Positions 35,258 through 41,530 of a DNA stretch of 64,000 bases are shown piece by piece; position 1 is the first letter of the stretch, and every line of letters begins with the position of its first letter. This DNA is from Cryobacterium sp. PH31-L1 (lineage in GTDB: Bacteria > Actinomycetota > Actinomycetes > Actinomycetales > Microbacteriaceae). The notes under the pieces were generated by a model. It did not search any database. It worked only from the letters and a program-made list of their open reading frames with translations, and was not told the origin of the DNA. Location of the stretch: positions 186,001 to 250,000 of the forward strand of contig NZ_JASISM010000001.1 of NCBI RefSeq assembly GCF_030063145.1. Reading direction: 5' to 3'. The position numbers were made by a program, and so were the translations under genes.

Positions 35258-35959
35258 CTACTTGAGCAGGGCTACGTCGGAGACGAGCTCGATGTGCGAG
35301 AGCATCGCCGCGGTCGCCGCTGCGGCGTCCTGCGCCCGGATCGCCTCGGTGATGGTGCGGTGTGAGGCGAGGGACTGCTCCGGCCGGCCCGGCTGAGCGA
35401 GGGATTCGAGCCGGGTTTCGAGTATCATCTCTGCGATGAACGTCATGAGCTGGGCGAGCACAGGGGAGTGAGCAGCCGCAGTGACGGCTTGGTGGAAGAG
35501 CTCGTCGCCGTGCGCCCCGCGGTCGCCGACGGCGATTTCCTCTGCCATCGCCCGGAGCGCATCCTCGATCGCGAGCAGGTCGGCATCCGTTCGGCGATCC
35601 GCGGCGAGCTCAGCGAGTTTGACTTCGAGGGTGGTGCGGGCTTCGACAATCTCGGGCAGCCGGTTGCGGTGCTCCCGCAGCCCACTGATCACCGTTGCGA
35701 CGCTCGGCCGATAAACGAGAACGGCGCCGGTGCCGTGCTTAACATCGATGACGCCGAGCACTTCGAGGGCCACGAGTGCCTGTGCGAGCGTGGCTCGGGA
35801 AACGCCGAGGCGTTCGGCGAGGTCGCGCTCGGCGGGCAACAGGTCGCCGGGGCCGAGGTGGGCTGACTCGATGTAGGCGAGAAGCTGGGCCACGAGTTGT
35901 TCGTACAGGCGTGGTTTCGTGACGCGTATGAGCGGCTGGGGCATTGCGTCCCTCGTCAT
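35258..35959 (-). CDS. GntR/FadR-family transcriptional regulator
   Basis: 233 residues from the ATG at 35959, which has GGGGAGG upstream; a longer frame back to 36046 would cover the promoter. Winged HTH at ~15-80 (LPAERDLAERLGVSRATLAQ, then KHGTGAVL), followed by an all-helical FCD effector domain (~95-230). FCD members usually sense organic acids. It is divergent from the dicarboxylate carrier, so it likely controls that operon; the effector is inferred to be its substrate. The 131 nt between tsaE and this gene hold no recognised gene. Confidence 0.88.
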   Translation of the reverse strand: MTRDAMPQPLIRVTKPRLYEQLVAQLLAYIESAHLGPGDLLPAERDLAERLGVSRATLAQALVALEVLGVIDVKHGTGAVLVYRPSVATVISGLREHRNRLPEIVEARTTLEVKLAELAADRRTDADLLAIEDALRAMAEEIAVGDRGAHGDELFHQAVTAAAHSPVLAQLMTFIAEMILETRLESLAQPGRPEQSLASHRTITEAIRAQDAAAATAAMLSHIELVSDVALLK

Positions 35960-36001
35960 GTCTGCCTCCCCATCAGTATTCGACCCAAGGTTACACGGCT
36001 C

Positions 36002-36040
36002 TTGACAAAGTCGCCTACTGTCTAGGAGGCTAGTCCAGTG
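36002..36040 (+). promoter_or_regulatory. Promoter and imperfect palindrome before the carrier gene
   Basis: TTGACA at 36002-36007 is a good -35. An imperfect palindrome ACTGTCTAG-GAGG-CTAGTCCAGT (36017-36039) follows where the -10 should be. It is a candidate site for the divergent GntR regulator; the exact -10 is not clear. Confidence 0.4.
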
Positions 36041-36082
36041 AGCCAATAGCCCACATTCACCTAACCCTATGGAGGAACAACG

Positions 36083-37456
36083 ATGTCCGCTCCCGTTATC
36101 TCAATCATCATCCTGGCGGTGATGTTTCTGATCGCCACGCTTTTGCCCGTCAACATGGGGGCGTTGGCCTTCGTGGGTGCCTTCCTACTCGGTGCCGTCT
36201 TTCTCGGCATGGAGACCACCGATATTCTCGCCAATTTCCCGGGCGGGCTGTTCCTCACGCTCGTCGGGGTTACGTACCTGTTCGCGATTGCGCAGGGCAA
36301 CGGCACGATCGACCTGCTGGTGCGCGGCGCCGTGCGGCTCGTCGGCGGCCGGGTGGCCCTCATTCCGTGGGTGATGTTCGTGATCACCGCCGTGATTACC
36401 GCAGTCGGCGCGCTCTCCCCGGCGGCGGTGGCCATTGTGGCACCGATCGCGCTCGGTTTCGCCCGCAAGTACAAGATCAGCCCGCTACTGATGGGCATGA
36501 TGGTGATTCACGGCGCGCAGGGCGGCGGATTCTCGCCGATCGCCGTCTACGGCGTGATCGTGAACAGCCTCATCTCGACCACCGGGCTCGACGCGAGCCC
36601 CACTGCCGTGTTTCTCTCCAGCCTCATCTTCAACTTTCTGATCGCCGTCGTGCTGTTCATCGTGCTCGGTGGTCGAAAGCTCATGTCAAGCCGGGTCGGC
36701 CACTTCGTGGAGCAGGCCGCCGAAGCTCGCATGGCGGTGAGCGTGGGTGCACGCGCCGCCGGTGACGGTGACGTGGCGTTCAAGGGCTTCGGCTCCGGCA
36801 TCTACGGACCCCGTGACCCCGCGGGCGACGGGATGCAGGCCACGGTGACCCGCGGTGAGCGCATCCCACAACTCGTGACCGTGGCAGGCCTCATCGCGCT
36901 CGCCGTGATCGCGCTCGGTTTCAAGGTGGACGTGGGCTTTGTCGCCATCACGATTGCCGTCATCCTCGCCCTCGTCTCGCCCGAAGCGCAAAAGGGCGCG
37001 GTCAATAAGATCAGCTGGTCGACCGTGCTGCTCATCTGCGGCATGCTCACGTTCGTTGGTGTTCTCGAAGAGGCAGGCACTATCGAGTACGTATCGGGAG
37101 CGGTGGCCAACCTCGGCATGCCGCTGCTTGCGGCACTTTTGATCTGCTACATCGGTGCCGTCGTCTCGGCCTTCGCCTCGTCAACGGCCATTCTCGCCGC
37201 GCTGATTCCGCTCGCCGTGCCGTTTCTCGCAACCGGGGATATCAGCGCCATCGGCGTGATCTGCGCGCTCGCCGTCGCGTCGACCATCGTGGACGTGTCG
37301 CCGTTCTCGACCAATGGCGCTCTCGTGCTTGCGAACGCCCCAGACGACGTGGACAAGGACCGCTTCTACAAGCAGATTCTCTCCTACAGCGGAATCGTCG
37401 TCGTAGCCGGGCCGGCCATCGCCTGGGCCGTGCTCGTGCTGCCCGGTTGGCTGTAA
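36083..37456 (+). CDS. MatC-like dicarboxylate (malonate-type) carrier
   Basis: 457 residues with about 11-12 hydrophobic segments and a hydrophilic central loop (~200-260). The N-terminal half resembles the MatC_N dicarboxylate carrier domain (LPVNMGALAFVGAFLLGAVF; FPGGLFLTLVGVTYLFAIAQ; ALSPAAVAIVAPIALGFARK; MVIHGAQGGGFSPIAVYG). MatC imports malonate in rhizobia, but other ion-transporter carriers share the fold. GGAGGAAC precedes the ATG. It is the first gene of a run with a CoA-transferase and a carboxyltransferase. Confidence 0.75.
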   Translation: MSAPVISIIILAVMFLIATLLPVNMGALAFVGAFLLGAVFLGMETTDILANFPGGLFLTLVGVTYLFAIAQGNGTIDLLVRGAVRLVGGRVALIPWVMFVITAVITAVGALSPAAVAIVAPIALGFARKYKISPLLMGMMVIHGAQGGGFSPIAVYGVIVNSLISTTGLDASPTAVFLSSLIFNFLIAVVLFIVLGGRKLMSSRVGHFVEQAAEARMAVSVGARAAGDGDVAFKGFGSGIYGPRDPAGDGMQATVTRGERIPQLVTVAGLIALAVIALGFKVDVGFVAITIAVILALVSPEAQKGAVNKISWSTVLLICGMLTFVGVLEEAGTIEYVSGAVANLGMPLLAALLICYIGAVVSAFASSTAILAALIPLAVPFLATGDISAIGVICALAVASTIVDVSPFSTNGALVLANAPDDVDKDRFYKQILSYSGIVVVAGPAIAWAVLVLPGWL

Positions 37457-37492
37457 CCCGCCACCTGCCGAAATACTGAGAAAGGACCGAAC

Positions 37493-38713
37493 ATGAATAC
37501 CGACATCCGCTCCGAAAACGGTACGCAGGGCCCGCTCTCGGGCTACCTCGTCGTAGACCTGAGCCGCGCGCTTGCGGGCCCGCACGCCACCATGATGCTC
37601 GCCGATCTCGGCGCACGCGTGATCAAAGTGGAGAACCCCAGCACGGGAGATGACACCCGCGGCTGGGGCCCTCCCTTCGTGGGCCCAGCGAACGATCCGC
37701 AGTCCACCTACTTTCTCTCCTGCAACCGCAACAAGGAGTCGATCGCCCTCGATCTGAAGAGTGACGACGGGCGTGAGGTGCTCAGCGAGTTGCTGCTGCG
37801 CGCCGACGTTGTAGTGGAGAACTTTCGTCCGGGGGTACTTGACAGGCTCGGCTTCTCGCCCGAGGCGATGCACGCCCTCAATCCGGCCCTGGTGATTCTC
37901 TCGATCACCGGTTTCGGCCACGACGGCCCCGAATCGAGCCGCAGCGGCTACGACCAGATTCTGCAGGGCGAGGCCGGCCTGATGTCGCTCACCGGCGCAG
38001 GCCCCGACGACCCGCAGCGTGTGGGCGTGCCCATCGCCGACCTCCTCTCGGGCATGTACGGCGCGTTCGGGCTGCTCGCGGCGCTTCTCGAGCGAGAGCG
38101 CACCGGGCGCGGGCAGGTCGTGCGCACCTCGCTGCTGGCCGCGCTCGTGGGAGTGCACGCCTTCCAAGGCACCCGCGCCACCGTGGCAGGCGAGGTGCCA
38201 GAAGCACGGGGCAACCACCATCCATCTATCGCGCCCTACGGCCTGTTTTCCTGCCGCGGTGGCAGCGTGCAGATCAGCATCGGCAGCGAGAAACTCTGGG
38301 CCACCTTCGCCGAGGAGTTCGGCCTTGATGCGGCGAGAGCCGAGTGGGCCAGCAACGCGCACCGGGTGCGCAACCGGACGAGCCTCACGGCTGCGATAGA
38401 AAATGTCTTCGGCGAGTTCGATGCGGTAACGCTGCTGCAGAAGCTTGCCGATGCCGGGATTCCGGCCGGGAAGGTGCGTTCGCTGGACGAGGTCTATAAA
38501 TGGGATCAGGTTTTGTCGCAGGGGCTGCTGATCGACGTGGAGCACGAGGTGCTCGGCAGGATCAGTCTCCCCGGTCCACCGCTTCGGTTCTTCGGACCCG
38601 CCGATACGGTCGAAACGACCAACACGATGCACTCCGCTCCGCCGGTGCTCGACCAGCACGGCACGGACATTCGAAGCTGGCTCAACCGCTCACTGGAAGG
38701 TATCTCACGATGA
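37493..38713 (+). CDS. Family III (CaiB/BaiF) CoA-transferase
   Basis: 406 residues. Family III enzymes move CoA between carboxylic acids through an aspartyl intermediate. Start GYLVVDLSRALAGPHATMML; ADLGARVIKVENPSTGDDTR; NRNKESIALDLKSDDGREVL; the catalytic aspartate is probably in SGYDQILQGEAGLMSLTG (~residue 153). The last segment has RFFGPADTVE. It overlaps the next gene by 4 nt (ATGA). With a carrier upstream it should activate the imported acid to a CoA thioester. Confidence 0.9.
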   Translation: MNTDIRSENGTQGPLSGYLVVDLSRALAGPHATMMLADLGARVIKVENPSTGDDTRGWGPPFVGPANDPQSTYFLSCNRNKESIALDLKSDDGREVLSELLLRADVVVENFRPGVLDRLGFSPEAMHALNPALVILSITGFGHDGPESSRSGYDQILQGEAGLMSLTGAGPDDPQRVGVPIADLLSGMYGAFGLLAALLERERTGRGQVVRTSLLAALVGVHAFQGTRATVAGEVPEARGNHHPSIAPYGLFSCRGGSVQISIGSEKLWATFAEEFGLDAARAEWASNAHRVRNRTSLTAAIENVFGEFDAVTLLQKLADAGIPAGKVRSLDEVYKWDQVLSQGLLIDVEHEVLGRISLPGPPLRFFGPADTVETTNTMHSAPPVLDQHGTDIRSWLNRSLEGISR

Positions 38714-40221
38714 CGACCGACGCCGCGCTCGCAACCCGCCACCTCAACGCCACGGAGCTCATCGACGTGGTGCTCGACAACGGCTCCTTCACGAGCTGGG
38801 ATCAGCCCGTGGTCGACCCCGCCCCGAATGAGGAGTACCGGGCCGACCTCGTGAAGGCCCGCGCGAAAAGCGGCACCGACGAGTCGGTGCTCACCGGCGA
38901 GGGGCTGATCCGCGGCCGCCGGGTGGCGATCGTGGTGAGCGAGTTCGCATTTCTCGCCGGATCGATCGGGCTTTCTGCTGCCGACAGAATTGTGAAGGCG
39001 ATCGAACTGGCCACACGCGAGGGGTTGCCGGTCTTGGCCGGACCGGCATCCGGCGGGACCCGCATGCAGGAAGGCACGCTGGCTTTTTTGTCGATGGTGA
39101 AAATCACGGCGGCGGTGCGCGCGCACCGGGAGGCGGGGCATCCGTATCTGGTGTACCTGCGGCACCCAACCACGGGCGGGGTGATGGCATCATGGGGGTC
39201 GCTCGGGCACGTGACGGTTGCCGAGCCGGGGGCGTTGCTCGGGTTCCTCGGCCCGCGCGTCTATGAGGCGCTCTACGACAAGAAGTTTCCGGAGAACGTG
39301 CAGGTCTCCGAAAACCTGTTCAACCAGGGGCTGATCGACGCCGTCGTGCCGCCGGAACAACTGCCAGAGATCGTGCACCGCGCGCTCATTATTCTCACCG
39401 ACCGGACTTCCGCGTCGGTGGCGGCCCCGGAAACCGTGAACGTGCGGCCAGCGCCTGACGACGCGTGGGCATCCGTTCAAATTTCGCGAAACCCGCGGCG
39501 GCCCGACCTACGCCAGCTGCTCGCCTATGGCGCGCACGACGTGCTGCCGCTTAACGGCACGGGCGAGGGCGAGAAAGACCCGGGACTCATGCTCGCCATG
39601 GCACGGTTCGGGCAGCAGAGCTGCATAGTGCTCGGGCATATTCGGCCGCGGCCCTCGCAAGACACGAAGATGGGCCCTGGATCTCTGCGGGAGGCTCGCC
39701 GCGGAATGCGCCTGGCGGAAGAGCTCGGAATTCCGCTGCTCACCGTGATCGACACCGCCGGCGCCGCACTATCGAAGGAGGCCGAGGAGGGCGGAATGGC
39801 CGGCGAGATAGCTCGGTCGCTGCACGAACTCATCGGCCTCAAGTCGGCCACGGTGTCGGTGCTGCTCGGCCAAGGTGCGGGGGGCGGGGCGCTGGCCCTG
39901 TTGCCGGCCGACCGCACGATCGCTGCGCAGCACTCCTGGCTCTCGCCGCTGCCTCCCGAGGGAGCAAGCGCCATCGTGTACCGCAGCACCGATTTCGCGC
40001 CGGCCGTGTCGGAGGCGCAGGGCGTGAACGTGGCCTCGCTGTTTGCCAATCGGATCGTCGACCACATCGTGGACGAGCGCCCCGACGCCGCAGACGAGGG
40101 ACGGGCGTTCTGCCAGCGCTTGGCGTCGGCCATCGAATACGAGTTGTCCGCGCTCTCCACGGTGCCCGTTGATGAACTACTTCCCCGCCGCCTGGCCCGT
40201 TACCACTCCCTCGGTCGCTGA
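38710..40221 (+). CDS. Fused AccD-AccA-type carboxyltransferase
   Basis: 503 residues in two crotonase-like halves. The first resembles the AccD beta half (VAIVVSEFAFLAGSIGLSAADR; AGPASGGTRMQEGTLAFLSM; HPTTGGVMASWGSLGHV) but lacks the N-terminal zinc ribbon. The second resembles AccA (RPSQDTKMGPGSLREARRGM; LLTVIDTAGAALSKEAEEGG; LLGQGAGGGALALLPADRTI). No biotin carboxylase or carrier gene is nearby. It may act in carboxylation using subunits encoded elsewhere, or, like MdcD/MdcE of malonate decarboxylase, in biotin-free decarboxylation. The latter is speculation. Confidence 0.85.
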   Translation: MTTDAALATRHLNATELIDVVLDNGSFTSWDQPVVDPAPNEEYRADLVKARAKSGTDESVLTGEGLIRGRRVAIVVSEFAFLAGSIGLSAADRIVKAIELATREGLPVLAGPASGGTRMQEGTLAFLSMVKITAAVRAHREAGHPYLVYLRHPTTGGVMASWGSLGHVTVAEPGALLGFLGPRVYEALYDKKFPENVQVSENLFNQGLIDAVVPPEQLPEIVHRALIILTDRTSASVAAPETVNVRPAPDDAWASVQISRNPRRPDLRQLLAYGAHDVLPLNGTGEGEKDPGLMLAMARFGQQSCIVLGHIRPRPSQDTKMGPGSLREARRGMRLAEELGIPLLTVIDTAGAALSKEAEEGGMAGEIARSLHELIGLKSATVSVLLGQGAGGGALALLPADRTIAAQHSWLSPLPPEGASAIVYRSTDFAPAVSEAQGVNVASLFANRIVDHIVDERPDAADEGRAFCQRLASAIEYELSALSTVPVDELLPRRLARYHSLGR

Positions 40222-40439: not shown

Positions 40440-40763
40440 ATGATGCAAGCGATTCTGGTGGGGCGACTCGGCGGCGGCCATGGCACGCTTGATCTGGAAA
40501 TGTTTTCCTACAGGCGACTCGCGCTGCACGGGGTCACCTTTCGCACCCGCTCCACCCAGGACAAGATCGCCCTCGTCGCCGCGCTGCGTGCCGACGTCGA
40601 CCTTGACTCGCCGGTACTTCGACCGCTCATCGACGGGATCATGCCGTGGACCGAGGCCAACGCGGCCCAGATTCTGATGCGCACCAACTCATCCCTCGGC
40701 AAGATTGTGCTCGCAGTCGGCGACGCGGCCGCCGAGAATTCGAACACGGGAAACTCTTACTAA
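40440..40763 (+). pseudogene. Remnant of a quinone oxidoreductase (zinc-type alcohol dehydrogenase family), internal deletion
   Basis: 107 residues. After MMQAILV the frame reads GRLGGGHGTLDLEMFSYRRL, HGVTFRTRSTQDKIALVA and RTNSSLGKIVLAVG, which match only the last ~100 residues of ~320-residue quinone oxidoreductases. The NAD(P)-binding fold and catalytic half are absent. The first residues resemble the normal start of the family, so an in-frame internal deletion is likely. AAAGGA precedes the ATG, and the stop overlaps the TSUP start, so the stub may still be translated. Confidence 0.75.
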
Positions 40764-41530
40764 TGACTCTTCTTGAAGGCGCGATCATCCTGGTCGCCGG
40801 AATTGCCGCTGGCATCATCAATGTGGTCGCCGGCGCTGGAACCCTGATCACCTTTCCCACCCTGCTCGCCCTGGGTGTCCCCCCGATCACGGCGAACGTC
40901 TCCAACACGGTTGGTCTAGTTCCCGGGTCGATCGCCGGAGCTTACGGTTATCGCCGGGAACTGCGCTCGCAGTGGCGGCCCGTGGCCTGGATGGCGGTAT
41001 TCTCGGCCGTAGGCGGAGTGATCGGCGGGTTGCTGCTGCTGATCCTGCCCGAGGAGGCCTTCTCGGCGGTCGTTCCGTTCCTGCTGCTGCTCGCCGCCGT
41101 GCTCTCCGCGATCCAGCCCCGCGTGGCCCGTTACGTGCGGCGCAAGTCCCCCGAAGGCACCACCACCGACACTCGGCCGATCACGTTCGGCCTCGTGCTC
41201 GGTATCCTCGGCACGGGGGTCTATGGGGGATACTTCGGCGCAGCGCAGGGAGTGGTGCTGTTGGCACTGCTGGGTATTCTGTGGTCCACCGACATACACC
41301 GGGCCAACGGTGCCAAGAATGTGCTGGCCGGCATGGCCAACCTCGTCTCCGCGATTATTTTCATTTCCAGCGGCACGGTGGACTGGGTGATCGCTCTACT
41401 GATCGGCGTTGGTTCTGCTTTCGGTGGCTGGCTCGGTGCCCGCATCGGGCGAAGGCTATCGGCTCCGGTATTGCGTGCGATCCTGGTGATCGTTGCCCTG
41501 ACCGCCGCCGTCGTGCTCTTTCTGACCTGA
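40763..41530 (+). CDS. TSUP (TauE/SafE) family anion exporter
   Basis: 255 residues from the ATG at 40763, overlapping the previous stop (TAATG). About 7-8 hydrophobic segments with the two half-repeats typical of the family (GIINVVAGAGTLITFPTLLA; GVYGGYFGAAQGVVLLALLG; STDIHRANGAKNVLAGMANL). Members move sulfite, sulfonates or organic anions; the substrate here is unknown. A piece of a related copy lies inverted at 40286-40349. Confidence 0.88.
   Translation: MTLLEGAIILVAGIAAGIINVVAGAGTLITFPTLLALGVPPITANVSNTVGLVPGSIAGAYGYRRELRSQWRPVAWMAVFSAVGGVIGGLLLLILPEEAFSAVVPFLLLLAAVLSAIQPRVARYVRRKSPEGTTTDTRPITFGLVLGILGTGVYGGYFGAAQGVVLLALLGILWSTDIHRANGAKNVLAGMANLVSAIIFISSGTVDWVIALLIGVGSAFGGWLGARIGRRLSAPVLRAILVIVALTAAVVLFLT

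Follow-up and report, generated by a model that had tools for sequence, protein, structure and literature searches.

What does a gene block do that combines a dicarboxylate carrier, a coenzyme A (CoA)-transferase and a fused carboxyltransferase, with neither a biotin carboxylase (BC) nor a biotin carboxyl carrier protein (BCCP) encoded nearby? This question is raised by a locus in the window analyzed here, a 64,000-nucleotide stretch of the genome of Cryobacterium sp. PH31-L1 (contig NZ_JASISM010000001.1, positions 186,001 to 250,000), in which the gene for a GntR/FCD transcription regulator (35258-35986, minus strand) is divergent from three plus-strand genes. These encode a MatC-type dicarboxylate carrier (36083-37456), a family III CoA-transferase of the CaiB/BaiF type (37493-38713) and a 503-residue AccD-AccA-like fusion (38710-40221), and the last two are referred to below as CaiB and CT. 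We propose, on the strength of an analysis carried out entirely in silico, that the block is most probably an operon for malonate catabolism that operates on free CoA and converts malonate to acetate and CO2. Open reading frame (ORF) calls and Pfam and NCBIfam matches bear out the gene assignments of the original prediction (a GntR/FCD regulator divergent from MatC, a family III CoA-transferase and a fused CT), with the start of the fusion trimmed, as its open frame opens at 38500 and the assigned start is the ATG at 38710, which sits on the CaiB stop codon (ATGA) with a 4-bp overlap of the two genes.

In the cycle that we envisage, MatC, a probable malonate importer (MatC_N 200.5 bits across the whole model, CitMHS 103 bits), would bring malonate into the cell, and CaiB, as a probable acetyl-CoA:malonate CoA-transferase, would transfer the CoA of acetyl-CoA (or of another acyl-CoA) onto malonate to yield malonyl-CoA and acetate. 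CT, which would no longer depend on biotin, would then decarboxylate malonyl-CoA to acetyl-CoA and CO2, and the acetyl-CoA released would prime the next round of CoA transfer. The net reaction would be the conversion of malonate to acetate and CO2 with activation of the acid without ATP, which is the logic of the malonate decarboxylase Mdc minus its acyl carrier protein. The decarboxylation that we infer for CT has a precedent in its chemistry, since MdcD-MdcE, a biotin-free CT pair from another branch, acts on malonyl-CoA and by itself decarboxylates it in vitro with a kcat of 2.3 per s (PMC5534430). We found no description of a malonate route built from CaiB and AccDA in the open-access literature. 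The computed basis of the proposal consists of the gene content of the block, its recurrence, the absence of nearby biotin partners, the exchange of CaiB for MatB in related loci, the separate clade formed by CT and its altered biotin-side residues.

Orthologous blocks are present in dozens of genomes, and this recurrence is far beyond chance. About one tenth of the 200 Microbacteriaceae genomes searched carry CT, and at all 18 CT-clade loci recovered from them (47-89% identity, the window's own locus excluded) CaiB lies immediately beside CT while the carriers and other genes vary. The closest named relative is Cryobacterium gelidum, whose CT is 89% identical. Among 80 named actinobacterial loci, with CT blocks in Arthrobacter, Pseudarthrobacter, Glutamicibacter, Tersicoccus and Cryobacterium among others, CaiB adjoins CT in 50, and MatC and GntR are each present in 27. 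In 52 of 297 class genomes CT occurs together with a close CaiB, where 23 would be expected (Fisher p 2e-16, uncorrected for kinship), and the two genes are adjacent in 42. A further search was anchored on MatC and did not presuppose CT, and in 20 of the 21 loci inspected a CT gene lies no more than a few kilobases away (for L180 it took a second query), while nearly all of the closest MatC homologues in the 297 genomes adjoin either CT or MatB together with CT. Gene order varies between genera (MatC-CaiB-CT, MatC-CT-CaiB, or CT-CaiB with an intervening GntR), so that the association is more than a single inherited stretch and speaks for a functional link. BC or BCCP genes were found near none of the 80 named loci and none of the 21 MatC-anchored loci, and hence the block does recur without biotin subunits, a check that the original prediction had called for.

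The link to malonate comes from a variant of the block. Four loci from a single Streptomyces-like genus (L179, L180, L186 and L196) have the order GntR-MatC-MatB-CT, and the AMP-forming ligase of L179 matches over its full length, with 981 bits, the solved structure 3NYQ ('Malonyl-CoA Ligase'), the MatB of S. coelicolor. The carrier linked to MatB is 53-59% identical to the window MatC, and CaiB occupies the place of MatB in loci of the form GntR-MatC-x-CT, which points to malonate. By this analogy malonate would be the substrate of the window block, and since the same regulator and carrier families adjoin MatB and CT in the Streptomyces-like genomes, the earlier suggestion that the carrier takes up malonate or a similar diacid gains support. 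With regard to the subsequent step, a MatA-type malonyl-CoA decarboxylase (PF05292) was not found in this genome, nor was any MdcD above the model cut-off, and MatA/MCD is present in 2 of the 297 class genomes, each time beside a MatB-like ligase. The rarity of MatA/MCD in the class, and the failure to find it or MdcD in this genome, make CT a candidate for the missing decarboxylation step.

CT itself consists of an AccD-like half (residues 12-229, 175 bits) and an AccA-like half (residues 252-503, 154 bits), while the MdcD model TIGR03133 gives 42 bits against a cut-off of 278. Judged from a comparison of these bit scores, CT descends from the AccD/AccA line and not from MdcD/MdcE, and its likeness to Mdc is therefore one of function rather than of membership; the parallel to Mdc that had been drawn for this locus holds in the former respect but not in that of descent. 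As had been noticed at the outset, CT has no zinc ribbon (CxxC...CxxC), and the ribbon is likewise absent from all CT-clade relatives. It is present in L050, L204, L206 and L210, and the fusions that have BC or BCCP genes next door (L050, L204 and L206) all retain it. In a maximum-likelihood tree, rooted on PccB (a long branch, so that the root is unsure), the 46 CT-clade rows are united with a support of 100, apart from both the group of biotin-linked AccDA and split AccD/AccA (96) and the group of MatB-linked CTs (99). A grouping of the fusion with biotin-dependent AccDA, which would have spoken against the original prediction, is thus not observed. The missing ribbon and the separate clade rule out that CT is a zinc-ribbon AccDA; a sister relationship between the Streptomyces CT and the window CT was also considered and is unsupported in view of the long-branch root.

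The residues of the CT clade have changed as well. Arg151 (the window numbering is the alignment column minus 3), which precedes the PTTGG loop by two residues, is an Arg in 46 of 46 CT-clade, 4 of 4 MatB-linked and 2 of 2 other ribbonless fusions, and the position is occupied by Thr in all six biotin-type rows, which are a small sample. In the AccA half, the motif GEGGSGG...SVISPEG of the biotin enzymes gives way across the CT clade to G[QE]G[ATS]GGG...SPLPPEG, and the biotin-side active site of CT is, to judge from its motifs, rebuilt. The AlphaFold2 model of CT (mean predicted local distance difference test score, pLDDT, 91.4) keeps the complete two-domain crotonase CT fold, its AccA half matching 9m70_B (Z 36.1, root-mean-square deviation, rmsd, 1.5 over 254 residues) and its whole chain AccD6 (Z 34.5, rmsd 2.7 over 390), and Mdc chains are not among the 50 matches listed. 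On the basis of the Pfam and NCBIfam matches, its own clade and this model, we regard CT as a probable biotin-independent malonyl-CoA decarboxylase.

CaiB is assigned to family III from its CoA_transf_3 domain (PF02515, 384 bits) and from the alignment of Asp154 in its GYD motif, the inferred catalytic residue, with the corresponding position of family III enzymes of solved structure, the best such relatives being 4ed9, SUGCT (9br7) and formyl-CoA transferase. The activity proposed here, malonate CoA-transferase (EC 2.8.3.3), has been described for the malonate decarboxylase of Pseudomonas and has no KEGG number (PMC8307300).

Several observations weigh against the cycle as drawn. Acetyl-CoA is assumed as the CoA donor, but succinyl-CoA is a frequent donor for family III enzymes, which makes that choice a guess. 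The CT linked to MatB is too distant from the window CT to count as its close sister (~32% identity, with the root of the tree unsure), so the shared role of the two rests on context and not on close descent. As many as 33 of 75 strong CaiB matches lie away from CT and about 40 CT-bearing genomes have no strong CaiB; on a Rhodococcus plasmid from a quinoline reactor (L212, 5461-8212) a close CaiB homologue without CT is immediately preceded by an aldehyde dehydrogenase, and this dehydrogenase might oxidize malonate semialdehyde. CaiB orthologues are thus not tied to CT alone, and the acid may differ between loci. The CaiB-CT pair also has aromatic hydroxylases, FAH-type hydrolases, carboxylesterases, amidases and hydantoinase B genes as neighbors, and such varied loci would either share malonate, or an acid like it, as an end product or differ in their acid. 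Two settings of the pair can be recorded here. In the Microbacteriaceae loci L036-L042, DUF3500 proteins, FAD aromatic hydroxylases and FAH-type hydrolases are found repeatedly beside CaiB-CT, and these neighbors may belong to an aromatic pathway whose end point is malonate or a similar acid. In Brevibacterium (L091, 5424-12253, and other loci) the pair lies in a region of histidine and tryptophan synthesis, between HisG and HisF/HisA-type and trpE-like genes.

The variety of these catabolic loci is also what favors a reading in which the same enzymes would act on another beta-dicarboxylate, such as methylmalonate, hydroxymalonate (tartronate) or ethylmalonate, and yield the matching acyl-CoA and CO2. 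The MatB of S. coelicolor also takes methylmalonate, and the nearest named model of CaiB, succinate-glutarate CoA-transferase, gives 304 bits, well below its cut-off of 750, so that the acid is not fixed by sequence. We nevertheless think it unlikely that another acid is the substrate, as the window MatC is close to the MatB-linked carrier and malonate is the simplest substrate common to all versions of the block. A quite different possibility is that CT is a subunit of a biotin-dependent acetyl-CoA or acyl-CoA carboxylase that draws its BC and biotin carrier from other parts of the genome, with MatC and CaiB feeding or salvaging malonyl-CoA for fatty acid synthesis. The fold and both halves of CT are clearly those of AccD/AccA, databases label its relatives acetyl-CoA carboxylase, and the genome encodes four biotin carboxylases. 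All four, however, are located away from the block, as the original prediction would have it, and one of them is near a PccB-type carboxyltransferase of the genome's own; the absence of a zinc ribbon and of nearby BC or BCCP genes in any CT-clade locus, the separate clade and the altered biotin-side motifs all argue against biotin dependence. In addition, the presence of CT in only a minority of the sampled Microbacteriaceae indicates that it is dispensable, and its probable mycobacterial orthologue, AccD3, was reported not to bind an AccA partner (PMC4347857). We accordingly hold a biotin-dependent function to be very improbable.

CT could also be a transcarboxylase that does without biotin, or a malonyl-CoA hydrolase or editing enzyme that does no more than hold malonyl-CoA low, with malonyl-CoA for biosynthesis as the main product of the operon. 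The occurrence of lone CT genes without CaiB or MatC would fit such housekeeping control of malonyl-CoA, but the layout of carrier, CoA-transferase and GntR regulator looks catabolic and the two-domain biotin-free MdcD-E decarboxylates, and to this alternative we give hardly any credence.

When compared with known systems, the block is a variant within malonate decarboxylation and a member of neither the Mdc nor the MatAB system. Membership in either is rejected by the MdcD score of CT, by the lack of MdcD and MatA in the genome and by the lack of MatB in the block, and no MdcC acyl carrier protein or maturation genes are found in the window between the regulator and the CT stop codon. The defining parts of both systems (MdcD, MdcC, MatB and MatA) are thus missing, in keeping with the earlier view that the route is distinct from them. 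The proposed cycle would share with Mdc (MdcA, MdcC, MdcD and MdcE) an acetyl/malonyl swap on a thiol that is followed by decarboxylation by a two-domain crotonase-fold CT, together with independence from biotin and acetate and CO2 as net products. It differs from Mdc in having no acyl carrier protein or prosthetic-group genes, in the replacement of MdcA by a family III CoA-transferase, and in a CT that is a single chain of apparent AccD/AccA descent, far below the MdcD cut-off (42 of 278 bits). In common with MatA/MatB/MatC of Rhizobium, it has the MatC carrier and would have malonyl-CoA as a free-CoA intermediate that is decarboxylated to acetyl-CoA, whereas CaiB stands in for MatB, without ATP, and the AccDA-like fusion for MatA (PF05292). 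The Streptomyces GntR-MatC-MatB-CT locus resembles the block in its regulator and carrier families and in the position of CT, but it has the ATP-dependent MatB, not CaiB, and its CT is ~32-36% identical and in another clade. This locus is probably the SCO2443-2445 region, in which SCO2445 is listed as acetyl-CoA carboxylase (PMC10302056, PMC4367926) and for SCO2444 nothing was found in the open-access literature. Since relatives of CT are annotated or counted as acetyl-CoA carboxylase in the Streptomyces papers, models of fatty acid and polyketide synthesis may hold a wrong reaction. Finally, AccD/AccA and the zinc-ribbon AccDA have the two crotonase-fold halves and the CoA-side motif SGGxRMQE in common with the window CT, which differs from them in the missing zinc ribbon, the missing BC and BCCP genes, the changed biotin-side motifs and its own clade.

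The CT clade extends beyond such blocks, as lone CT genes are present in many Nocardioides-, Rhodococcus- and mycobacteria-like genomes, and two genomes (G248 and G484) each have one lone CT and one CT in a MatC-CaiB block. In L216 (3124-6467) a 490-residue lone CT is divergent from an enoyl-CoA hydratase gene, which is followed by an MBL-fold gene. The gene order accD3-echA6-Rv0906 of M. tuberculosis is the same, and from this order, rather than from a comparison of sequences, L216 is likely the accD3 locus of mycobacteria-like genomes. AccD3 (Rv0904c, MSMEG_5642) would thus be a lone 490-residue CT with enoyl-CoA hydratase and MBL-fold neighbors that has the same biotin-side motifs as the window CT, and it differs in that its type of locus is without adjacent MatC or CaiB. 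According to published reports, AccD3 binds no biotin partner and does not take part in fatty acid synthesis. A second homologue, MSMEG_2169, is present in M. smegmatis (PMC5311964). We offer tentatively, as a possibility that could well fall either way, that the whole CT clade, AccD3 included, is an unrecognized actinobacterial family of malonyl-CoA decarboxylases that need no biotin and have a family III malonate CoA-transferase (the free-CoA activity of EC 2.8.3.3) as their partner. If the family has this activity, AccD3 is a direct test case. If our proposal is true, the block would represent a third actinobacterial malonate route, an Mdc-like cycle on free CoA that takes two enzymes and a carrier, and would supply both a gene for malonate CoA-transferase and an acetyl-CoA carboxylase core turned into a biotin-free decarboxylase.

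The divergent regulator (GntR PF00392 58.7 bits, FCD PF07729 91.6 bits) is a probable repressor, one that would keep the block silent until malonate (or malonyl-CoA) is present. Its GntR/FCD orthologues are divergent from MatC in 27 of the 80 named loci. The promoter/operator region between the two (35987-36082, no strand) has a TTGACA box and a AGGCTAGTCCAGTGAGCCA element with in-register conservation among relatives, this conservation of the operator being judged by eye. In the intergenic regions of 29 of 45 loci, at least 8 of the 10 positions of the consensus TGGCTNAGCCA are matched, and the window copy matches at 7 of 10, which is no better than shuffled sequence. Hence the operator is a hint, and its use as an independent proof of the block was set aside even though it is strong in many relatives.

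In the window the block lies between tsaE and tsaB. Downstream of it, a 107-residue ORF (40440-40763) is similar to the C-terminal end of a zinc-binding or quinone-type dehydrogenase (a weak match to PF13602) and is possibly a remnant that was left behind when the block settled between these two genes. A TauE/SafE carrier is encoded on the same strand as the block (40646-41530), and because a TauE homologue (38-45% identity) is found by GntR beside MatC-CaiB-CT in L181-L185, TauE may serve some genera as an additional carrier of the system.

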